In this document: in pieces, positions 25,986-35,495 of the stretch
Position numbering within the stretch: the stretch's first letter is position 1
Layout of the letters: every line of letters begins with the position of its first letter
DNA from: Desulfovibrio sp. A2
Lineage (GTDB): Bacteria; Desulfobacterota; Desulfovibrionia; Desulfovibrionales; Desulfovibrionaceae
Assembly (NCBI RefSeq): GCF_000226255.1
Contig: NZ_AGFG01000028.1
Span: 1-64,000 of the forward strand
Reading direction: 5' to 3'
DNA length: 64,000 bases
Program-made: the position numbers and the translations under genes
The notes under the pieces: model-generated
What the model saw: only the letters and a program-made list of their open reading frames with translations
Told to the model about the DNA's origin: nothing
Database searches by the model: none

Positions 25986-26984
25986 TTACGGCCTGCTGTC
26001 AATGACGTCGCCCGCATGCAGGCGATGTTCGTGCCCCGTGGCGTCCACCAGCCGCAGCAGGCCGTTTGGGTCCACGTCGGCCACCAGGCCCTCCACCACG
26101 CCGTGCGGCGTGCCCACCCGCAGGGGGGTGCCCACGATGGCGGAAAGTTCCTTCCAGCGGGCGATGACCGGGCCGGGGTCGCCCTCGCGCAGGGCCGTGT
26201 ACCAGTGCTCGGCGCGTTCCAGAAAGGCGCGCAGCACCTCTACCCGCGACACCGGGCGGCCCAGCTCGATGGCCAGCGATGTGGCCTTGTCGCGCAGGTC
26301 TTCGGGCAGGTCCTCCACGCGGGTGTTCACGTTGATGCCCGCGCCGGTGACCACGTGGGACACCGCATCGGCCACCGTGGACACCTCGGTCAGGTTGCCC
26401 GACACCTTGCGGCCGTGCAGCAGAACGTCGTTGGGCCATTTGGCGCGCGGGGCAAGGCCGGTGACCTCGGCCACCGCCTCGGCGACGGCCACGGCGGTCA
26501 GCAGGGTGACCAGCGGTGCGGCCTGCGGGGCCAGACGGGGCCGCAGCACCAGCGAGACGTACACCCCCACCCCGGCGGGCGAAGCCCAGGGCCGCCCGGT
26601 GCGGCCGCGCCCGGCGGTCTGCTCCGACGCGACCACCACGGCGCCCTCGGAGGCGCCGCCCAGGGCCAGCAACGCGGCCTCGCGGTTGGTGGAGTCGGTG
26701 CGTTCGAGCAGGACGAAGTCGCCCTGCCCGAAGCAGACGGTGCGCAGCCCCCGGCGGAGTCCGCCCACCGTGAGCACGTCGGCCTCGGCCAGCAGCCGGT
26801 AGCCCCTGCGGGTCATGGCCTCGATCTGGTGCCCTTCGCCGCGCAGCGTGCGCACGTGCTTGGCCACGGCGGCCCGGCTCACGCCGAGCAGCCGCGAAAG
26901 TTCCTCTCCGGATCGCCAGTTGCCGCCCGCTTCGAGCAACATGGCGAACACCCGCCCCTTCGTGGTCGTCCTGTCAGTGTCCAC
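25986..26984 (-). CDS. birA: Bifunctional biotin-protein ligase / biotin operon repressor
   Basis: 332 residues. An N-terminal winged helix (residues 1-65, LLGVSRAAVAKHVRTLRGEGH) marks the repressor type. The ligase domain shows the biotinyl-AMP loop GRGRTGRPWASPAGVGVYVS (125-144) and the KWPNDVLLHGRKVSGNLTE active-site segment, followed by the SH3-like C-terminal domain. It attaches biotin to acceptor lysines and, as biotinyl-AMP complex, represses bio genes. It is divergent from bioB, with a recognisable operator in the 96-base gap (26990-27022). Confidence 0.96.
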   Translation of the reverse strand: MDTDRTTTKGRVFAMLLEAGGNWRSGEELSRLLGVSRAAVAKHVRTLRGEGHQIEAMTRRGYRLLAEADVLTVGGLRRGLRTVCFGQGDFVLLERTDSTNREAALLALGGASEGAVVVASEQTAGRGRTGRPWASPAGVGVYVSLVLRPRLAPQAAPLVTLLTAVAVAEAVAEVTGLAPRAKWPNDVLLHGRKVSGNLTEVSTVADAVSHVVTGAGINVNTRVEDLPEDLRDKATSLAIELGRPVSRVEVLRAFLERAEHWYTALREGDPGPVIARWKELSAIVGTPLRVGTPHGVVEGLVADVDPNGLLRLVDATGHEHRLHAGDVIDSRP

Positions 26985-26989
26985 GGCGA

Positions 26990-27022
26990 TTGTAAACCAC
27001 TAGGCAATTGTTTGGTTGACAA
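26990..27022 (+). promoter_or_regulatory. BirA operator between birA and bioB
   Basis: TTGTAAACC - 15 bases - GGTTGACAA, matching the bacterial BirA box (TTGTAAACC-N14-16-GGTTTACAA) at all but one position. It overlaps a TTGACA that could be the bioB -35 element and, on the minus strand, a TACAAT that could be the birA -10. BirA would therefore control both the biotin operon and itself. Confidence 0.9.
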
Positions 27023-27080
27023 AAAGGAACACGCCCGCTACTCGCCCTGAACTGCCATTCAACAGGAGCGATACCGGTAC

Positions 27081-28169
27081 ATGAACCCCCTGCTGGAACG
27101 TCTGCGCGCGCGCCTTTCGGACACCATTCCCCCCGGAACGGAGACTCCGTGCGCATCGCCCGGCCGCGCCCACGCGGCGGCCCCCTCCATTCCCTGCGGC
27201 ATCACCGGGGAAGAGGCGCTCGCCGTGGCGCGGCTGCCCGCGTCCGACATCCTGGACATCCTGGCCGTGGCGCAGGCCGTGCGTTCGGCCCGCAAGGGGC
27301 CGCTGGCGACCACCTGCGGCATCGTCAACGCCAAGTCGGGCCGCTGCGGCGAGGACTGCGCCTTCTGCGCCCAGTCGTCGCACCACGACACGGGCGCTCC
27401 GGTGCATGCGCTGCTTGGCCCGAACGCGCTGCTGCGCCATGCGGAAGAACTGGCCCGCGCCGGGGTGCGTCGCTTCGGCATCGTGACCAGCGGCAACGCC
27501 CTTTCGGAACGGGAATTCGACGCGGTCTGCCATGCGGCGCGCCTGCTGCGCGAACGGGTGGACATCGGCCTGTGCGCCTCGCTGGGGCAACTCGCGCCGG
27601 GGTCCGGAAACCCCGGGGAACGAGCGCTCCGCCTTAAGGACGCAGGCATTTCCAGCTACCACCACAATCTGGAAACGGCCAGAAGTTTTTTCCCGCAGGT
27701 ATGTACCACGCACCCCTACGACGACGACCTCGCCACCGTGCGCGAGGCCGCGCGGGCGGGGCTGCGCACCTGTTGCGGCGGCATTCTGGGCCTTGGCGAA
27801 ACGTGGGAACAACGTGTGGAACTGGCCCTTACCCTGCGCGAACTGGACGTTGATTCCATCCCGCTGAACTTCCTGCATCCCATTCCGGGCACACGGCTGG
27901 GCCACCGCAGTCCGCTGCCGCCCATGGAGGCGCTGCGGACCATCGCCGTGTTTCGGCTGTTGCACCCGGCGCGGGACGTCCTGGTCTGCGGCGGGCGCGA
28001 GGCCACGCTGGGCCCGTGGCAGGCGTGGGTGTTCGCCGCCGGGGCCAACGGCCTGATGGTGGGCAACTACCTGACCACGGCGGGCCGCGCCCTTGCCGAC
28101 GACATGGAGATGCTGGCCGCGCTGGGCGTGGGGGGCCTTGCCGCCAACGGCGGGGAGGCGCGGGCATGA
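27081..28169 (+). CDS. bioB: Biotin synthase (radical SAM)
   Basis: 362 residues. The radical-SAM motif is Cys89-X3-Cys93-X2-Cys96 (CGEDCAFC). The conserved SSYHHNLET, GGILGLGE and ELDVDSIPLNFLHPIPGTRL segments follow. The enzyme inserts sulfur into dethiobiotin, the last biotin step, using SAM and a sacrificial [2Fe-2S] cluster. It is first in a nine-gene operon directly under the BirA operator. Its stop overlaps the bioA start (ATGA). Confidence 0.96.
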   Translation: MNPLLERLRARLSDTIPPGTETPCASPGRAHAAAPSIPCGITGEEALAVARLPASDILDILAVAQAVRSARKGPLATTCGIVNAKSGRCGEDCAFCAQSSHHDTGAPVHALLGPNALLRHAEELARAGVRRFGIVTSGNALSEREFDAVCHAARLLRERVDIGLCASLGQLAPGSGNPGERALRLKDAGISSYHHNLETARSFFPQVCTTHPYDDDLATVREAARAGLRTCCGGILGLGETWEQRVELALTLRELDVDSIPLNFLHPIPGTRLGHRSPLPPMEALRTIAVFRLLHPARDVLVCGGREATLGPWQAWVFAAGANGLMVGNYLTTAGRALADDMEMLAALGVGGLAANGGEARA

Positions 28170-29620
28170 GCGAACGGAAGACGGCAAACGGCATGCCCGC
28201 AGAAGCCATTACGCCCACCGCCGCGACGCAGCGGCTGCGCGCGCTGGACAAGGCCCACGTCTGGCACCCGTTCACCCAGATGCGCGACTGGCTGGCCGCC
28301 GACCCGCTGATCATCGCCGCCGCCGAGGGCAACCGGCTTATCGACACCGACGGCGCGTCCTACCTGGACGGCGTGTCCTCGCTGTGGACCAACGTGCACG
28401 GGCATCGCCACCCCCGGCTGGATGCGGCCGTCCGCGCGCAACTGGACAAGGTGGCCCACACCACCCTGCTGGGCCTTGGCAGCGAGCCATCCATAGAACT
28501 GGCGGCGCGCCTTGCCGCCATCGCCCCGCAGGGGCTGACGCGGGTGTTCTATTCCGACAGCGGGTCCACGTCGGTGGAAGTGGCGCTGAAGATCGCCTTC
28601 CAGTTCCACCGCCAGGCCCCGGCAGAAATCGGCGGCGATGCGCGGCGCACCCGTTTTCTCAGCCTGCGCAACGCCTATCACGGCGACACCGTGGGGGCCG
28701 TGGCCCTGGGCGGCATGGCCCTGTTCCACTCCATCTATGCGCCGCTGCTGTTCGACACGGTGAAGGCCGAAAGCCCCCACTGCTACCGCTGCCCGTTCGG
28801 GCGGCAGGCCGGGGCGTGCGAGCGGGAATGCATCACCCACATGGAAACGCTGTTCGCCCGCCACGGGCACGAACTGTGCGCCGCCGTGGTGGAGCCGCTG
28901 GTGCAGGGAGCGGCGGGCATGCTGTTGCAGCCCCCCGGCTGGCTGCGCAGGGTGCGTGAGTTGTGCGACGCGCACGGGGTGTTCCTGGTGGCGGACGAGG
29001 TGGCCGTGGGCTTCGGCAAGACCGGCACCCTGTTCGCCTGTGAGCAGGAAGGGGTGACCCCCGACTTTCTGTGTCTGGCCAAGGGCATCACCGGCGGCTA
29101 CCTGCCGCTGGCCGCCACCCTCACCACCGAACGGGTGCACGACGGCTTTCTGGCCCGCCACGAGGAACTGCGCACCTTCTTCCACGGCCACACCTACACC
29201 GGCAACCCGCTGGCCTGCGCGGCGGCGCTGGCCTCGCTGGACGTATTCGACGAAGAGCGGGTGATGGAACGGCTGCAACCGAAGATCGCCCGGCTGGCCG
29301 CCCGGCTGGAAACGCTGCGCGGCCTGTCCCACGTGGGGGATATCCGCCAGCGCGGGGTGATGACCGGCATCGAACTGGTGCGAGACCGGGGCACGAAGGA
29401 AGGCTACGACCTGGCCCAACGCATCGGCCACCGCGTCACGCTGGAAGCCCGGCGGCGCGGGGTGATCATCCGCCCGCTGGGCGACGTGATGGTGCTCATG
29501 CCGCCGCTGTCCATCACCGACGAGGAGATCGACCTGCTGGTGGACGCCACGGGCGAGGCCATCCGCGCCGTGACCGAGCATGGCGCCACCGGCGGGTTGG
29601 ACGTGCCGGGGTCGGCATGA
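28166..29620 (+). CDS. bioA: Adenosylmethionine-8-amino-7-oxononanoate aminotransferase
   Basis: 484 residues from the ATG that overlaps the bioB stop. It is a PLP fold-type I aminotransferase converting KAPA to DAPA. KAHVWHPFTQMRDW at the N-terminus is the BioA substrate-site signature. The PLP lysine lies in LAKGITGGYLPLA, and VADEVAVGFGKTG supplies the PLP-ring aspartate. It is longer than enterobacterial BioA (about 430), with the extra length mostly in the segment around FGRQAGACERECI. It is coupled to the next gene by another ATGA overlap. Confidence 0.96.
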   Translation: MSERKTANGMPAEAITPTAATQRLRALDKAHVWHPFTQMRDWLAADPLIIAAAEGNRLIDTDGASYLDGVSSLWTNVHGHRHPRLDAAVRAQLDKVAHTTLLGLGSEPSIELAARLAAIAPQGLTRVFYSDSGSTSVEVALKIAFQFHRQAPAEIGGDARRTRFLSLRNAYHGDTVGAVALGGMALFHSIYAPLLFDTVKAESPHCYRCPFGRQAGACERECITHMETLFARHGHELCAAVVEPLVQGAAGMLLQPPGWLRRVRELCDAHGVFLVADEVAVGFGKTGTLFACEQEGVTPDFLCLAKGITGGYLPLAATLTTERVHDGFLARHEELRTFFHGHTYTGNPLACAAALASLDVFDEERVMERLQPKIARLAARLETLRGLSHVGDIRQRGVMTGIELVRDRGTKEGYDLAQRIGHRVTLEARRRGVIIRPLGDVMVLMPPLSITDEEIDLLVDATGEAIRAVTEHGATGGLDVPGSA

Positions 29621-30156
29621 CCGCCGCGCAGGAAGGCAGCGGAACCGTGCGGAGCGGGGTGTTCCGCTTCGACCCGGCCCACCCGCTGTTCGCGGATCAT
29701 TTCCCCGGCGCCTCCGTGGCGCCCGGGTCGTGCATCGTGCAGGCCTTTGCGGACGAAGCGTCGCGCTGGGCCCACGAGAGCACTCGGGGGGACGGAGGGG
29801 CACCGGCAGGGAGGCAGGCCGGGCGACAGCCAGCACCGCTGGCGACGCCCCTGGCCGTGTCCGCCGGTGTCCCTCCGCATTCCGCCATGCACGGGCACGA
29901 CGCGAATGCGGGCCGGAACGGCGAACGGGGTGAAGGGGACCATGAAACGCGGCCCTTTCCGTTTTCCGGACCGCCGCGCGCGGTGCGCGGGTTCCGCTTC
30001 CGGCGCTTCGTGACGCCGGGCGACTACACCTTCCGCATGGAATGCACGGACGACGGGCTGCGCTGCTCGCTGCACGCACTGGAGGACGCCACGGCAGCCG
30101 CAAGGTCCGGGGCCGCACAGTCGGCTCCGCTGGTGACGGGAGTGCTGGCATGGTAG
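29617..30156 (+). CDS. Hotdog-fold protein 1 of the biotin operon, FabZ-like
   Basis: 179 residues; the start overlaps the bioA stop. HPLFADHFPGASVAPGSC (residues 22-39) aligns with the FabZ active-site loop (HFPxxPVxPG), retaining catalytic His28. The following helix reads IVQAFADEA where FabZ has IxEAMAQ, so the catalytic Glu is Gln42 here. A low-complexity insert of about 60 residues rich in Gly, Arg and His interrupts the domain before RAVRGFRFRRFVTPGDYTFRM. A 3-hydroxyacyl-ACP dehydratase role in making the pimeloyl chain is inferred from operon context. A second hotdog protein at 32912 keeps the Glu, so they could form a heterodimer. Confidence 0.75.
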   Translation: MTAAQEGSGTVRSGVFRFDPAHPLFADHFPGASVAPGSCIVQAFADEASRWAHESTRGDGGAPAGRQAGRQPAPLATPLAVSAGVPPHSAMHGHDANAGRNGERGEGDHETRPFPFSGPPRAVRGFRFRRFVTPGDYTFRMECTDDGLRCSLHALEDATAAARSGAAQSAPLVTGVLAW

Positions 30157-30980
30157 CTGGCGCTCCCCCGCAGGATTCCCCTATGCGCGGCCCCGTGCTC
30201 ATCGCCGGGGGCTCGTGCGAACTGGGGCTGGCCCTGGGGGCGGCGCTGGCCGCCGACGGCATGGCCGTGGCCCTCACCGCGCGCGATGCGGCGGGCGCGG
30301 CGCGCATCCGCGCGGCCCTGCCGGAGGCGGCGGTGCTGCCCTTGTGCGCGCGCGGACCGGAACGTGGTGGCGCGCACGAAGATTTCGCGCCAGCGGCGGC
30401 AGAAGGGGACGACGCCGAAGACGACACCCCGGAAACCCTGCCCGAACGCGCCCGCGCGGCGCTGGGGGCCGCGCCCCGGCTGTTCGTGGACCTGCTGCAC
30501 TCGCGCTTCGAATGCCTGCTGGCAGGGGCCGACCCCGCCGCCATCGACCTGTGGGCCTCGCGCGACATCGCCTTCCGCGCCCGGCTGCTGCGGGCCGTCA
30601 GCCGGGCCATGCTGGCAGCGCGCGACGGGCGGTGCGTGTTCGTCTCGTCCTCCGCCGCCGAGCGCGCCGCGCCCGGACAGGGCTACTACGCCGCCGCCAA
30701 GCTGGCCGGGGAGGCCCTGTACCGCGCCGTGGGCGTGGAACTGGCCCCGCGCGGGGTCACCGCCGGCTCGTTGCGGCTGGGCTGGCTGGACGCGGGCCGG
30801 GGCGCGCCGTTCCTGCAATCCCGCGCCGCAAACGCCCCCCTGCCGCCCACCGGGCGCACGGTGACCGTTACCGAGGCCGTGCAGACCCTGCGTTTTCTGC
30901 TATCCGCCCCGGCCACGGCCATCAACGCCACCACCCTGACCTGCGACGGCGGCTTCGGCGCGCTGAAGCCGACGGGCTGA
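30150..30980 (+). CDS. Short-chain dehydrogenase/reductase, FabG-like, in biotin operon
   Basis: 276 residues from the ATG at 30150, overlapping the previous stop. The Rossmann motif is PVLIAGGSCELGLALG (15-30). The catalytic triad is in FVSSSAAE and GYYAAAKLAG (Tyr180-X3-Lys184). The C-terminal TCDGGF matches FabG-type SDRs. An acidic insert around residues 70-95 (AAAEGDDAEDDTPETLPE) is unusual. It probably reduces a 3-oxoacyl-ACP intermediate with NADPH during pimeloyl-chain assembly; this role is inferred from its neighbours. A 132-base gap with no recognised element separates it from the ACP gene. Confidence 0.82.
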   Translation: MVAGAPPQDSPMRGPVLIAGGSCELGLALGAALAADGMAVALTARDAAGAARIRAALPEAAVLPLCARGPERGGAHEDFAPAAAEGDDAEDDTPETLPERARAALGAAPRLFVDLLHSRFECLLAGADPAAIDLWASRDIAFRARLLRAVSRAMLAARDGRCVFVSSSAAERAAPGQGYYAAAKLAGEALYRAVGVELAPRGVTAGSLRLGWLDAGRGAPFLQSRAANAPLPPTGRTVTVTEAVQTLRFLLSAPATAINATTLTCDGGFGALKPTG

Positions 30981-31112
30981 TCCACCCTTCCATGCGCACG
31001 ACCGGCCCGACTGCATGAACTGGCCAGGCTGGACCGGCTGCCCCGGCTGGCGCGCATCCCGGCGCGGGACCAGCCGCCACACTTCCCATCATTACCCACA
31101 GGCAGAAACACC

Positions 31113-31535
31113 ATGCCCGAACACATCCGACACGAACCGCACGACATCGCGGCGGCCATAGCCACGCTGGTGGCGCCCATTTTCGACGTGGACGCCGCCA
31201 CCCTGTCGCCCTCCACCCGGCTGATGGCCGATCTGCCCTGCGAATCCATCGACCTGCTGGAAATCGGCGCGGGGCTGAATCGCCGCTTCGCCATTCCGGT
31301 GCGCGACGCCGCCGCCTTTCTCACCGACCTGCGCATCCACGTGCTGGAGGCGGAACGCACCGGCGAAGCCCCCGAAGCCCGGCTGGCGCGGGAATACCCG
31401 CACCTGTCCGCCGCACGCGTGGCGGAGGTGCTGGCCGCCGTGCGCGTGCCCGGCGCGCCGCCGGTACTGACCATCGGCGACGTGGCGGCGTATGTGGCGT
31501 GGAGCCTTGCCCGGCACGCGGGTACATCGGCCTGA
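31113..31535 (+). CDS. Acyl-carrier-protein-like protein of the biotin operon
   Basis: 140 residues, longer than a normal ACP (about 80). The phosphopantetheine site is LPCESIDLLEIG with Ser45, preceded by the ACP-like helix I segment ATLVAPIFDVDAATLSPSTRL. The C-terminal approximately 60 residues form an additional, mainly helical region (LSAARVAEVLAAVR, IGDVAAYVAWSLARH), the second part resembling the end of an ACP helix IV. This suggests an insertion within an ACP fold. It likely carries the growing pimeloyl precursor specifically for BioF, separate from the main fatty-acid ACP. Confidence 0.8.
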   Translation: MPEHIRHEPHDIAAAIATLVAPIFDVDAATLSPSTRLMADLPCESIDLLEIGAGLNRRFAIPVRDAAAFLTDLRIHVLEAERTGEAPEARLAREYPHLSAARVAEVLAAVRVPGAPPVLTIGDVAAYVAWSLARHAGTSA

Positions 31536-31568
31536 GCGGCATCGCCTGCTCCCCTGCCAGCCAGACAT

Positions 31569-32915
31569 ATGCAGTCTTTCTCTTCTCCCCCTCATCATTC
31601 CCGTCGTGTGGTCATCACCGGCGCGGGCGCGGTGACCCCGCTGGGGCACACCCCGCGGGACATGGCGCGCGCCATCCGCGAGGGGTACAGCCCGTTCCGC
31701 CACGCCGCTGGCCTGCCCGGCGCGGCATGTGCCCCGGTGCGGGACTTCGACGAGGCGGCCGCCACGGGCCGCTGGCGACACCGCCGCTATCTTTCGCGCG
31801 GGGGACTGCTGGCGTTGGCGGCGGCCCTGGCCGCCGCCGGGCAGGCCGGATACGCCTGCACCGCCACGCCCGGCATGCCGGGCGTGGCGACGGACGGCGA
31901 CGCCCCGCATCCGCAGCCCTTCCCTGAAGACACCGCACTGGTGGCCGCCAGCGGCCCCAACATGGACGTGGGGGCAGACTTCCCCGCCGCGTGCGCCCCA
32001 CGCACCGGGGACAGCACCGTTGCGCCCGGTCTGGAACACCCCGGCCTGGACGCCCTGTGGATGCTGCGCTGGCTGCCCAACACCGCCGCCTCGGCCGTGG
32101 CCATGCGCTGCGGAATCCGGGGCGAGGGGCTGGTGCTGGGCACGGCCTGCGCCGCCTCATTGCAGGCCGTGGGCGAGGCCGCCCGGCGGGTGCGCTGGGG
32201 CCTAGCCCCGGCGGCGCTGGCCGTGGGCGGCGATTCGCGCCTATCGGAAGGGGGGCTGCTGAGCTATGCCCGCGCCGGGGCCATCCAGCGCGACCTGAAC
32301 CCCGCCGATGCCGCCGCCCCGCACCACGCCTGCCGCCCCTTCGACGCCGCGCGGCGCGGCTTCGTGCCCGGCGAAGGGGGCGCTGCCTTCGTGCTGGAGC
32401 CGCGCGACGCAGTGCTGGCGCGCGGGGCCGCGCCGCTGGCCGAAGTGCTGGGCATGGGAGCCACGCTGGACGGCCACGCCCTGACCGCGCCGGAGCCCGA
32501 CGCCCGCCGGGCCGAGGCCGCCGTGCGCGGCGCACTGGCCGAGGCGGGCCTGTCGCCCGGCTACGTGCACTGGGTAGCCGCCCACGGTACCGGCACCGTA
32601 CTCAACGACGCGGCAGAAATCCGCCTGCTGGAACGGATGTTCGCCGACGCGGGCCACGCGCCCGCCGTCACCGCCGTGAAGTCGTGGACCGGGCACTGCG
32701 CCTCGGCCTGCGGCGCGGTGGAACTGGCAGTGCTGCTGGCCTGCGCAGCTGACGGCTTTCTGCCGCCGGTGCGCAACCTGTCCGCGCCGGAAAGCGACCG
32801 ACTGGACTTCGTGCGCGAGGCGCGCCCCCTGCCCGGCAACGGGAATGGCTCCATCGGGCTGCTGCTCAATTTCGGCTTCGGCGGGCAGAACGCGGCATTG
32901 GTGGTGCGGTTGTGA
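31569..32915 (+). CDS. Beta-ketoacyl-ACP synthase (KAS I/II type) of the biotin operon
   Basis: 448 residues with the thiolase-fold active-site triad Cys194 (GTACAASLQ), His339 (AHGTGTVLND) and His376 (KSWTGHCASACG), and the C-terminal NFGFGGQNAALVV signature. VVITGAGAVTPLG at the N-terminus is typical FabF. It condenses an extender unit with an acyl-ACP. In this operon it would elongate a dicarboxylate-derived primer to the C7 stage; the primer cannot be read from sequence. The stop overlaps the start of the next gene (GTGA). Confidence 0.88.
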   Translation: MQSFSSPPHHSRRVVITGAGAVTPLGHTPRDMARAIREGYSPFRHAAGLPGAACAPVRDFDEAAATGRWRHRRYLSRGGLLALAAALAAAGQAGYACTATPGMPGVATDGDAPHPQPFPEDTALVAASGPNMDVGADFPAACAPRTGDSTVAPGLEHPGLDALWMLRWLPNTAASAVAMRCGIRGEGLVLGTACAASLQAVGEAARRVRWGLAPAALAVGGDSRLSEGGLLSYARAGAIQRDLNPADAAAPHHACRPFDAARRGFVPGEGGAAFVLEPRDAVLARGAAPLAEVLGMGATLDGHALTAPEPDARRAEAAVRGALAEAGLSPGYVHWVAAHGTGTVLNDAAEIRLLERMFADAGHAPAVTAVKSWTGHCASACGAVELAVLLACAADGFLPPVRNLSAPESDRLDFVREARPLPGNGNGSIGLLLNFGFGGQNAALVVRL

Positions 32916-33391
32916 CACCCATCGTCGCCGCCCTGCCGGAAAATACCCCCGCCCGCTTCCTGCTGCTGGACCGGGTGGACCACTGCGACGCGGCGGCGGC
33001 CACGGCCCGTCGCGCCTTCACCAGCGCCCCCGCATGGCAGGGGCTGGAAGCCATGGCCCAACTGGCCGCCCTGCACGCCCGCTGGGCAGCCGGATTCGCC
33101 CGCCACGCCTTCCTGCTGACGGCAGATGAATGCACCTGGCCGTCCGCCGGAGCACTGCATGGTGCTCTGTACATCCGGGCCGATCTGCTGGCCGAAAGCG
33201 ACAGTGCGGCCACCTATGCCACCAGCATCACGCCCGCACCGCACGGGTTCGGCGGCGACACCGCGACAATGGGCACCTGCATGACCGCCACCCTGACCAT
33301 CGGGCGCACGAACTACGACACCCGCTTCAACGGCGACGTCCTCGCCGCCCGCTACCAAGAGACCTTCGCATGGCTGACCAGAACCGCCTGA
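32912..33391 (+). CDS. Hotdog-fold protein 2 of the biotin operon, FabA/FabZ-like
   Basis: 159 residues from a GTG overlapping the KAS stop. PARFLLLDRVDHCD (13-26) matches the FabZ/FabA LVDRV strand and GLEAMAQLAALHARW (44-58) matches the catalytic helix, keeping Glu46 and Gln50. The HFPG loop is shortened to FTSAPAWQ, so the catalytic His is absent. It is therefore the complement of the other hotdog protein (29617), which has the His but not the Glu. A dehydratase subunit role is inferred. It overlaps bioF by 22 bases. Confidence 0.75.
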   Translation: MTPIVAALPENTPARFLLLDRVDHCDAAAATARRAFTSAPAWQGLEAMAQLAALHARWAAGFARHAFLLTADECTWPSAGALHGALYIRADLLAESDSAATYATSITPAPHGFGGDTATMGTCMTATLTIGRTNYDTRFNGDVLAARYQETFAWLTRTA

Positions 33392-34764
33392 CCGCCGCCT
33401 TGGCGGACGACATTCCCACCGCGCCACACCTGGCCACGCCCGGCCTGCTGGCCGCGCGTCTGGCCCTGCGGGTGGGGGAATTGCGCGCCGCCGGGCTTGG
33501 TCGCAGCGCCCCGCTGCTGGAAGGACTGCCCGCGTCCGCCCCTTCCGCACCCTTCGCCGGAGCCAGCGTGACCGCCAGGAAGGCGGATTCCCCCTCTCCG
33601 GCGCTGGTGCGCATGGATGGCCGTCCCCTGCTGCATTTCGCGGGCAACGATTACCTCGGCCTGGCCGCCGACGGGGAATGGCGGGCCACGGTGGCCGCCT
33701 GCTTCGCGCGCCACGCGCCCTCGGGCACGGCCTCGCGCCTGGCCGCCGGGCACACAGCCCTGGCGGCGGAGGCGGAGGCCGCCTGGGCCGACTACTTCGG
33801 CTACGCCGAATGCCTGTTCCTGCCCAGCGGCTACCAGGCCAATCTTGCCCTGCTGTGGGGGCTGCTGGGGCACGGCGATGCCGTGTTCCTGGACCGGCGC
33901 GTGCACGCCAGCATGGCCCACGCCCTGCCGCCCACCGGCGCGCGGCTGCACACCCACCGCCACGGCGACATGGACGACCTGTCGCGCCGTCTGGCCGCGT
34001 GGCGGGCCGAGGCCGACGGAGGGAACGGCGTCCCGCCCGCCTGCGGGACGACCGCCGACACGGGGGCCCCGCAGCCCGTTATCCTGGCCGAATCGCTGTA
34101 CAGCATGGACGGCACCCTGCCGGACATGGCGCGCCTTGGCGCGGTGGTCCGCGAGCACGGGGCCTTCGTCATCGTGGACGAGGCGCACGCCTTCGGCGCT
34201 CTGGGCACGGGCGGGCGCGGCCGGGCGCATGGCGTGGCCGACGCCGCCGTGGGCACGCTGGGCAAGGCGCTGGGGCTGTTCGGGGCATTTCTGCTGTTGC
34301 CGCGCGGTACCCGCAATGCGTTGGAAAACCTAGCCTCCCCGGTGATCCATTCCACCGCCCTGCCCGAGGCGCACGCCGCCTGCTGTCTGGCCCTGCTGGA
34401 CCTGCTGCCCCGGCTGGACGACCGCCGCCACCACCTTGCCGCGCTGGGCGCGGCCCTGCGCGCCGGGCTGCGCGCCGAAGGCGTGCCGGTGCGCGAGGGC
34501 GCGCACGTGGTCTGCGTGGATGTGGGCGACGAGGAGCGCTGCACGCGGCTTGCCGCGCAACTGCGCGAACCGGACGACGGCGGCCCCGGCGTGCTGGCCC
34601 TGGCCGCGCGCCATCCCACCGTGGGGCGCGGCGCGGCCGTGCTGCGCCTGGGGCTTACCGCCCTGCACCGGGTGGACGACGTGGCACGTTGCGTGGAGTT
34701 GCTGACCCGCGCGTGGAAAGAAGAGGAAGCAAAGCGGGGCGGTGCCCCCGGAGATCAATCATGA
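33370..34764 (+). CDS. bioF: 8-amino-7-oxononanoate synthase
   Basis: 464 residues from the ATG at 33370, inside the end of the preceding gene. The PLP-dependent alpha-oxoamine synthase signatures are FAGNDYLGLA, SGTASRLAAGHTALAAEAE, IVDEAHAFGALGTGGRG and the PLP lysine in GTLGKALGLFG. BioF condenses pimeloyl thioester with alanine, releasing CO2, to give KAPA. Its location directly after ACP, KAS and hotdog genes suggests it takes pimeloyl-ACP. The chain is about 80 residues longer than E. coli BioF, with extra length at the N-terminus (residues 1-60) and a loop near residue 215. Confidence 0.95.
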   Translation: MADQNRLTAALADDIPTAPHLATPGLLAARLALRVGELRAAGLGRSAPLLEGLPASAPSAPFAGASVTARKADSPSPALVRMDGRPLLHFAGNDYLGLAADGEWRATVAACFARHAPSGTASRLAAGHTALAAEAEAAWADYFGYAECLFLPSGYQANLALLWGLLGHGDAVFLDRRVHASMAHALPPTGARLHTHRHGDMDDLSRRLAAWRAEADGGNGVPPACGTTADTGAPQPVILAESLYSMDGTLPDMARLGAVVREHGAFVIVDEAHAFGALGTGGRGRAHGVADAAVGTLGKALGLFGAFLLLPRGTRNALENLASPVIHSTALPEAHAACCLALLDLLPRLDDRRHHLAALGAALRAGLRAEGVPVREGAHVVCVDVGDEERCTRLAAQLREPDDGGPGVLALAARHPTVGRGAAVLRLGLTALHRVDDVARCVELLTRAWKEEEAKRGGAPGDQS

Positions 34765-35495
34765 ACGCAATGAACATCCCCCCCTCCCGCGCCCTGTTCG
34801 TGGTGGGCACGGACACGGGCGTGGGCAAGACGGTGGTTTCGATGCTGCTGGTTCGCGAACTGTTCGCGCGGGGGGAGCGGCCCTTCTACGCCAAGCCCAT
34901 GCAGACCGGGTGCACAAACCCGTACGACACGGACAGCGACGCGGCCTTCGTGTACCGGCACGTTCCGGAACTGGCCGGGCGCGACCCGGCGGAGGCGGTG
35001 GGGTGGTGCTTCGCGGCGCCTAAGGCTCCGCTCCACGCCGCGCGGGACGAAATGCGCGGCGTGGAGACGGAAGACCTGGTGCGCAGTCTGGCATGTCTGC
35101 GCGGTGAACACGCCTCACTGATCCTTGAAGGCGCGGGCGGTCTGATGGTGCCGTTCACGCCGGAGGCCCTGTGCATCGACTGCATCCGGGCCGCCGACGC
35201 CCGTCCCGTGCTGGTGGCGCGGGCGGGGCTGGGCACCGTGAACCACACGCTCCTCTCGGTGGAGGCGCTGGTCCGGAGAGGGATGGAACCGGCAGGGATC
35301 GTTTTCGTTCACACCAAGGAACGTTCCGCATCCCCGGACCTTGTGCGGGACAACATGGAGGCGGTAGCCATGCTGTCCGGTTTTCCGGTGAGCGGCGTGG
35401 TGCCGCCCATCGAAAATCTGCGTAATCCGCCCGACGCCGCCTTCGCGCCCTTGCGGCGCATGCTCGACGTGCTGGACGGGGTGGAAATCAGCTAA
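34761..35495 (+). CDS. bioD: Dethiobiotin synthetase
   Basis: 244 residues. The P-loop GTDTGVGKT lies at 16-24, and KPMQTGC, EGAGGLMVPF and ARAGLGTVNHTLLSVEAL are standard BioD motifs. It closes the ureido ring of DAPA with CO2 and ATP. GGAG precedes the ATG, which overlaps the bioF stop. It is the last gene of the operon; a hairpin overlaps its stop codon. Confidence 0.96.
   Translation: MNAMNIPPSRALFVVGTDTGVGKTVVSMLLVRELFARGERPFYAKPMQTGCTNPYDTDSDAAFVYRHVPELAGRDPAEAVGWCFAAPKAPLHAARDEMRGVETEDLVRSLACLRGEHASLILEGAGGLMVPFTPEALCIDCIRAADARPVLVARAGLGTVNHTLLSVEALVRRGMEPAGIVFVHTKERSASPDLVRDNMEAVAMLSGFPVSGVVPPIENLRNPPDAAFAPLRRMLDVLDGVEIS

Follow-up and report, generated by a model that had tools for sequence, protein, structure and literature searches.

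The biotin operon of Desulfovibrio sp. A2 raises the question of where the pimeloyl thioester used by BioF comes from, and why five genes resembling those of fatty-acid synthesis lie among the bio genes. We analysed the 64,000-nucleotide stretch of contig NZ_AGFG01000028.1 that contains it ('the window'), in which the order is birA, BirA operator, bioB–bioA–hotdog1–reductase–ACP–KAS–hotdog2–bioF–bioD (Table 1). Two known pathways invite comparison. In Escherichia coli, the terminal carboxylate is masked as a methyl ester. The BioC–BioH pathway reaches pimeloyl-ACP by elongation of the fatty-acid type, as we propose here, but it does so with the general fatty-acid synthase and methyl esters, and the window genome has neither bioC nor bioH above cut-off. 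The BioZ pathway of alpha-proteobacteria, which starts from a glutaryl primer, employs a bio-specific ketosynthase, as the window operon does; BioZ is described, however, as being of the KAS III type, whereas the operon ketosynthase is FabF-like and belongs to a cassette with its own ACP. The likely answer, in our view, is a Desulfovibrio-type biotin operon equipped with a dedicated mini fatty-acid synthase, in which a route started from malonyl groups would be served by a composite dehydratase of the two hotdog proteins (hd1 and hd2) and by an enoyl reductase from outside the operon.

Table 1. Features of the biotin operon and its divergent regulator gene, with positions in the window
Feature	Position	Strand	Basis
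birA, biotin-protein ligase / biotin operon repressor, divergent	25986..26984	-	TIGR00121, 172.5 bits (cut-off 83.1); HTH_11
BirA operator, TTGTAAACC-N15-GGTTGACAA	26990..27022	+	consensus with 1 mismatch; sole match in the window, 0.00 expected
bioB, biotin synthase	27081..28169	+	TIGR00433, 370.4 bits, above NCBIfam equivalog cut-off
bioA, DAPA aminotransferase	28166..29620	+	TIGR00508, 553.1 bits, above NCBIfam equivalog cut-off
hotdog1 (hd1), FabA/FabZ-like putative half-dehydratase	29617..30156	+	PF07977, 24.1 bits, marginal (cut-off 23)
FabG-like SDR reductase	30150..30980	+	PF13561/PF00106
Noncanonical acyl carrier protein (ACP), 140 aa	31113..31535	+	PP-binding, 19.7 bits, below cut-off 20.8
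FabF-like ketosynthase (KAS)	31569..32915	+	ketoacyl-synt N and C
hotdog2 (hd2), putative half-dehydratase	32912..33391	+	AlphaFold hotdog fold; Foldseek
bioF, 8-amino-7-oxononanoate synthase	33370..34764	+	TIGR00858, 244.6 bits, best family, below its cut-off
bioD, dethiobiotin synthase	34761..35495	+	TIGR00347, 128 bits, above NCBIfam equivalog cut-off

Family profiles and, for hd2, structure place all the genes named in the earlier note where it had put them, between 27081 and 35495 and in the order given, and the single BirA operator that it described ahead of the operon is likewise there. It had allowed for one gap, however, and there are two, of 132 nt between the reductase and ACP genes and of 33 nt between the ACP and KAS genes; with the gene starts adopted, the remaining junctions are overlaps of 4–22 nt. 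Between 26900 and 35700 we found no sigma-70-like site, and the five terminator-like matches there are close to the mean for shuffled sequence (3.7, sd 2.1). The KAS has the catalytic Cys-His-His and Lys, and the reductase retains YxxxK (K184). In alignments, the ACP displays the serine motif ESIDLLE together with an inserted segment carrying a YPHLS-type motif. Neither a malonyl transferase nor an enoyl reductase is encoded in the operon, and so the cassette still depends in part on enzymes from outside.

This type of operon is already known. An extended biotin operon was predicted in Desulfovibrio by Rodionov 2004, and the BirA site given there for D. vulgaris is identical in form to the window's operator (PMC545781). 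The earlier note mentioned such a bioinformatic notice, correctly, although since 2023 the evidence has been genetic as well: by transposon fitness, Trotter 2023 found that D. vulgaris requires the cassette when biotin is withheld, nine genes of the cluster being needed, both hotdogs among them (PMC10102598). As published, the D. vulgaris operon (birA, DVU2557; cluster, DVU2558–DVU2565) has the same gene set as the window's, lacks bioC and bioH, and has its BirA site between birA and bioB; it belongs to a different genome, however, and section 17 of Trotter 2023 assigns its two hotdog proteins just FabZ-like domains (PMC10102598). How the first stage works biochemically is not settled by that paper (PMC10102598), and a search of the open-access PMC literature found no biochemistry of the primer or intermediates.

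The absence of bioC, bioH and bioW, which the earlier note reported for the operon, extends to the whole window genome, which is 99.98% complete. The best matches reach 50.4 bits for bioC, against a curated cut-off of 184.95, and 40.3 bits for bioH, against 206.95; none is above the curated cut-off for bioW. In each of these searches at least one of 14 control genomes scored above cut-off. We also carried out the co-occurrence check suggested earlier, with the operon ACP profile as marker of the cassette and a match at E ≤ 1e-30 as the definition of a bioC-like gene. Among 150 genomes of the same order, 38 have the operon ACP (one of them, G023, being doubtful, with a 51-bit match and two internal stops), 56 have a bioC-like gene, and none has both: across these 150 genomes, the two are mutually exclusive. 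The 131 genomes that possess bioB divide in the same way (ACP 37, bioC-like 53, both 0; Fisher 5.6e-11, phylogeny not corrected for), and within one genus of 26 genomes the ACP marker occurs in five and a bioC-like gene in six. Neither occurs in 41 of the 131, which means that the order must also use other routes. At phylum level, the cassette ACP is present in 8 of 395 genomes, the window's own included, with at least 94 bits in each; a looser threshold (E 1e-8) returned 42 of 395, of which those at or below 41 bits resemble ordinary ACPs and were discarded. Together with the conservation of the cassette and the fitness data from D. vulgaris (PMC10102598), these absences and the zero overlap support a dedicated route to a pimeloyl thioester on its own carrier protein, as originally proposed.

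For comparison of residues we assembled 45 cassette loci, the window included, from which hd1 was recovered at 38 and hd2 at 43; L090 and L062 are one contig, and distinct loci therefore number 37 and 42. Gene order is conserved, and bio genes adjoin the cassette in 42 of the 44 fetched loci; at L091, which is cut by a contig end, no bio gene is visible. Seven loci lack hd1, five of them at an upstream contig end (L073, L076, L088, L198 and L200) and the others being L071 and L081. Two are missing from the hd2 residue count: L203, which does have hd2 (E 0.0025 unfiltered, Glu motif present), and L200, where the ACP and a nitroreductase gene are present and KAS and hd2 are absent from the 7.5 kb downstream. 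One further hd2 match, L080 (E 0.0056), was discarded, there being no bio genes at the locus. The KAS profile was a poor finder of cassettes, which occupied only five of its best 80 contig loci (L088–L092), the rest being general FabF; the 75 non-cassette loci supplied the FabF, FabZ-like and FabG-like controls.

Why should such a cassette include two FabZ-like genes? In neither protein of the window do the FabZ-type His and Glu occur together in one chain. The catalytic His is present in hd1 (H28), with Gln at the Glu position and a long insertion at about residues 55–115; in hd2 the Glu is present (E46) and the HFP loop is missing. The same division runs through the loci: hd1 has the FabZ His in 38/38 and Glu in 6/38, and hd2 has the Glu in 43/43 and HFP in none, although in six some His lies 10–18 residues before the Glu, never as HFP. 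Among 37 FabZ-like control matches, the 31 with HFP carry Glu in 30 cases and Gln in one; this count is of those 31, the other six lacking HFP, and the pattern used was slightly looser than that for hd1.

Structure prediction supports hd2 as a hotdog protein (AlphaFold model, pLDDT 80.8); by sequence, the window protein matches no Pfam or NCBIfam family at E ≤ 0.1, and 23 members gave no relevant Pfam match at E ≤ 1 that would mark hd2 as ApeP. Its best Foldseek match is 6qsr_B (E 1.7e-6), with chains of homodimeric FabZ close behind (E 1.8e-5). For hd1, modelled with moderate confidence (pLDDT 67), the best match is 6qsr_A, weakly so (E 0.032, prob 0.99, rmsd 7.4); searched with its sequence profile, 6qsr_A comes at E 1.1e-6, behind several FabZ chains, and of 20 hd1 members seven reach E ≤ 1 against the ApeI-like family of Pfam, the strongest at 2.7e-4. 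These two chains make up ApeI:ApeP, the dehydratase of aryl polyene synthesis, which is described as heterodimeric, with just one active site (PMC8041823), and is likewise built of two unlike hotdog chains; hd1 and hd2 are encoded together in one operon. The comparison with hd1 and hd2 was by structure search and sequence profile, and ApeI:ApeP serves a secondary-metabolite pathway, whereas hd1 and hd2 sit in a biotin operon. A second two-component hotdog assembly, the YcsD–FabZ complex model (PDB 9a6k), ranks sixth and tenth for hd2, below 6qsr_B. By sequence and predicted fold, then, hd1 and hd2 resemble two halves of a single dehydratase that complement each other, and we infer that they would form an obligate heterodimer in which both contribute to one shared site. 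This reading is an addition to the known operon, section 17 of Trotter 2023 proposing no such site, and offers a simple account of why both FabZ-like genes are needed.

The two proteins might instead act separately, one as a complete dehydratase (perhaps alongside general FabZ) and the other as a thioesterase or structural hotdog. We regard this as improbable, though it has some footing. The Glu position of hd1 is acidic in 10 of 38 loci (E in six, D in four), and in those loci a self-sufficient hd1 homodimer is possible; 4-hydroxybenzoyl-CoA thioesterases are among the Foldseek matches of hd2, some thioesterases of the hotdog fold work with just an acid where FabZ has its Glu (PMC2698920), and at L071 and L081 hd2 is present with no hd1 or reductase in the available upstream sequence, even unfiltered. 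Against it, the losses of His and Glu are complementary at nearly all loci, the top structural matches of hd1 and hd2 are the two different chains of a single heterodimer, and D. vulgaris requires both without biotin (PMC10102598). That the five genes make some other product and merely happen to lie in a biotin operon is very improbable indeed: the function of each enzyme is assigned by homology alone, but the cassette and the bio genes have a BirA operator in common and adjoin one another at nearly all fetched loci, bioC-like genes never accompany the cassette, and the fitness phenotypes of D. vulgaris without biotin point the same way (PMC10102598).

A different primer likewise seems unlikely. 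Glutaryl-CoA or glutaryl-ACP, with five carbons, could be extended to pimeloyl-ACP in one round, in the manner of BioZ, in place of a start from malonyl-ACP. A one-round route by way of BioZ is known (PMC7645780, PMC8024396), and for a single round the KAS, the reductase and the composite dehydratase of the operon would be enough; the FabF-like character of the operon KAS and the lack of any glutaryl-supplying gene in the operon argue the other way. In the malonyl-started route that we prefer, a general malonyl transferase would malonylate the operon ACP, and the KAS would join a dicarboxyl starter, probably malonyl-ACP, to malonyl-ACP. The SDR would then reduce the 3-oxo group, hd1:hd2 would dehydrate the product with His from hd1 and Glu from hd2, and an enoyl reductase encoded elsewhere, probably of the FMN/Fe-S nitroreductase fold, would saturate it. 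Two rounds would yield pimeloyl-ACP, for direct use by BioF. If free carboxylates are tolerated throughout, methylation by BioC and demethylation by BioH would be unneeded.

How the free carboxylate might be held is suggested by residues peculiar to the cassette families. The KAS forms a branch separate from FabF (support 100/99, in a tree omitting L070 and L090 and using every second control FabF, 38 of 75), and its invariant DSR motif (D222, R224) is found in 43/43 cassette proteins and in 6/78 and 3/78 controls. The SDR has family-specific R143, R209 and R217, and hd2 has R57, which also occurs in 3 of 12 controls. The pathway-specific arginines of KAS and SDR are candidate carboxylate contacts; since the conserved family-specific polar residues also include acids (KAS E186 and D222; SDR D114 and E121), they are candidates and not proof of carboxylate binding. 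A fuller version, which we put forward tentatively and with doubt, has an obligate heterodimer with a His(hd1)–Glu(hd2) site, KAS R224, SDR R143, R209 and R217, and hd2 R57 holding the free terminal carboxylate, and a nitroreductase-fold enzyme replacing FabI. The split-site reading names residues whose mutation would reveal how free carboxylates come to be accepted without methylation, and a working cassette would be a compact supply of pimeloyl-ACP for engineered hosts.

For a nitroreductase-fold enzyme acting as an enoyl reductase, the C-terminal domain of FbiB is the comparison case. Within the operon itself, a nitroreductase-like gene adjoins the ACP gene in 6 of the 40 loci screened (L061, L071, L199, L200, L201 and L202; L088–L092 lay outside the screen). 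Orthologues of the nitroreductase of locus L082 (at least 53% identity) occur in 7 of the 150 genomes, all of them cassette-bearing, and 31 of the 38 cassette genomes are without one; the tie by co-occurrence is suggestive only. In D. vulgaris, the nitroreductase DVU1220, which is unlinked to the cluster, is required without biotin (PMC10102598).

The biotin operon forms one co-directional run, bioB-bioA-hd1-SDR-ACP-KAS-hd2-bioF-bioD, with birA divergent from it (both within window positions 25986-35495). Here hd1 and hd2 are two hotdog (dehydratase-like) genes, SDR is a FabG-like reductase and KAS a FabF-like ketosynthase; the five genes from hd1 to hd2 are termed the ‘cassette’. The run lies behind one BirA operator, as the earlier note had observed. 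That note had counted a single gap between genes; there are two, because neither SDR and ACP (132 nt apart) nor ACP and KAS (33 nt) overlap. The remaining junctions are overlaps of 4-22 nt. Operons of this type are already known. A novel pimeloyl route was predicted from five additional genes present in each of the two Desulfovibrio species studied (Rodionov et al. 2004, PMC545781), and in D. vulgaris ten genes are specifically important without biotin: nine in the biotin cluster and an unlinked nitroreductase, DVU1220 (Trotter et al. 2023, PMC10102598). No later biochemical study of the Desulfovibrio-type route was found in open-access PMC. The interpretation first drawn, a dedicated pimeloyl-thioester route with its own carrier protein, holds, and D. 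vulgaris genetics support it; what is new, and testable, is the proposed split dehydratase and the residues named below.

The earlier note had also reported bioC, bioH and bioW missing, and this extends from the window to the whole genome (99.98% complete), where none exceeds curated cut-offs. Used as a protein query against this genome, KAS matches at three sites: its own gene, a FabF-like gene outside the operon, and a ketosynthase domain in a 5716-aa open frame (G000:C35, near 238398-239108), a putative giant PKS/FAS-like gene. Among 150 genomes of the same order, the operon ACP occurs in 38 and a bioC-like gene (E<=1e-30) in 56, only 4 of which exceed the curated cut-off; the two never overlap. 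The 131 bioB-positive genomes divide into 37 with the cassette, 53 with a bioC-like gene, none with both and 41 with neither (Fisher p 5.6e-11 for the exclusion, shared ancestry uncorrected). The two routes alternate even inside one genus, since among 26 genomes of g3 five have the cassette and six a bioC-like gene. Given the 41 with neither marker, the order may have additional routes to pimelate.

In a phylum-wide sample, 8 of 395 genomes carry the cassette ACP. One cassette among the KAS-profile matches listed (L089) is on a contig labelled Elusimicrobia, which may be mis-binned. Of 44 fetched loci, 42 have bio genes adjoining the cassette; the exceptions are L091, truncated where its contig ends, and L200 (G218:C111), with only the ACP and a nitroreductase-like gene, and KAS, hd2 and bio genes absent in 7.5 kb downstream. 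In L062-L068 the cassette directly follows bioB, with no bioA found in the 16 kb. The bio genes of L070 (G051, genome 43% complete) are broken into several frames, perhaps by poor assembly or decay.

FabZ and FabA catalyze dehydration with one His and one acid. H[FL]P is kept in all 38 hd1 found in the 45 loci examined, and their Glu position holds G (10), Q (7), E (6), H (6), D (4), A (3), S (1) or R (1). All 43 hd2 found in these loci keep the Glu; none has HFP before it, and 6 have another His in that stretch. Of 37 FabZ-like controls, taken from 75 non-cassette loci among the best 80 KAS-profile matches, 31 have HFP, 30 of these with the Glu. No Pfam or NCBIfam model matches hd2 at E<=0.1, and 23 relatives scanned gave no relevant Pfam match at E<=1; in NCBIfam three of them have a weak FabZ match (best E 0.043). 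Its predicted fold (AlphaFold, pLDDT 80.8) is a hotdog. With Foldseek, against 350,542 PDB chains, hd2 best matches 6qsr_B (E 1.7e-6), followed by FabZ chains (from 1.8e-5), the YcsD-FabZ complex model 9a6k also being matched; hd1 best matches 6qsr_A (E 0.032, prob 0.99), with nothing under 0.001. The hd1 profile finds 6qsr_A among PDB sequences at E 1.1e-6, several FabZ chains scoring better, and in 20 members scanned with Pfam, ApeI-like appears in 7 at E<=1 (best 2.7e-4) and FabA in all 20. By predicted-structure matching, then, hd1 and hd2 resemble opposite chains of the ApeI:P dehydratase heterocomplex (6qsr), and ApeI/ApeP is heterodimeric with a single active site (PMC8041823). The two look like halves of one enzyme, and we infer an obligate heterodimer in which hd1 would supply the His and hd2 the Glu. 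As exceptions, L071 and L081 contain hd2 but lack an upstream hd1.

In this genus hd1 has a long insertion whose length varies (window 29780-29960); it is absent from aligned hd1 of other genera. Six FabZ-like genes beside FabF-like genes, mostly at planctomycete FabF loci among the KAS-profile matches listed, lack the HFP His (L125, L142, L144, L149, L152, L161). In L125, L142, L152 and L161 this gene keeps the Glu and a second FabZ-like gene, with HFP, lies in the same operon; such pairs are perhaps other heterodimeric dehydratases.

The window operon contains no enoyl reductase. A nitroreductase-like gene adjoins ACP in 6 of 40 loci screened; in five of the six, KAS flanks it on the other side. 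Three in-operon proteins scanned gave sub-threshold matches to BluB and FbiB C-terminal models; FbiB has a role in ene-reduction. Nitroreductase-like genes in such operons of other genomes were already noted by Trotter (PMC10102598). The window genome encodes two nitroreductases, the second (L083) with no orthologue-level match in G122, one of the genus's four other genomes.

Coordinates of the operator and of the two nitroreductases of the window genome
Feature	Position	Remarks
BirA operator	26990-27022	single site
Nitroreductase 1	L082:2161-2985	ferredoxin-like Cys motif; kept at 93-94% in the genus's four other genomes
Nitroreductase 2	L083:1861-2811	ferredoxin-like Cys motif

KAS keeps its Cys, both His and Lys, and in a tree of 42 cassette KAS and 38 FabF the cassette branch stands apart (support 100/99). 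Within an invariant DSR motif, D222 occurs in 43/43 (6/78 controls) and R224 in 43/43 (3/78 controls). L106, L122 and L165 (Gemmatales/Gemmataceae), loci with no bioF, hd1 or hd2 found, have a KAS that shares the ADSR motif and GFGGQN with cassette KAS. SDR keeps K184 (39/39), R143 (35/37), R209 (37/39) and R217 (37/39), the arginines each 0/37 in FabG-like controls; hd2 keeps R57 (39/39 versus 3/12 controls). Judged from conservation, these family-specific residues are candidate contacts of a free carboxylate; the conserved set includes acids besides arginines. The ACP has an ESIDLLE-type serine motif; roughly 45 residues are inserted, among them a conserved segment of YPHL type.
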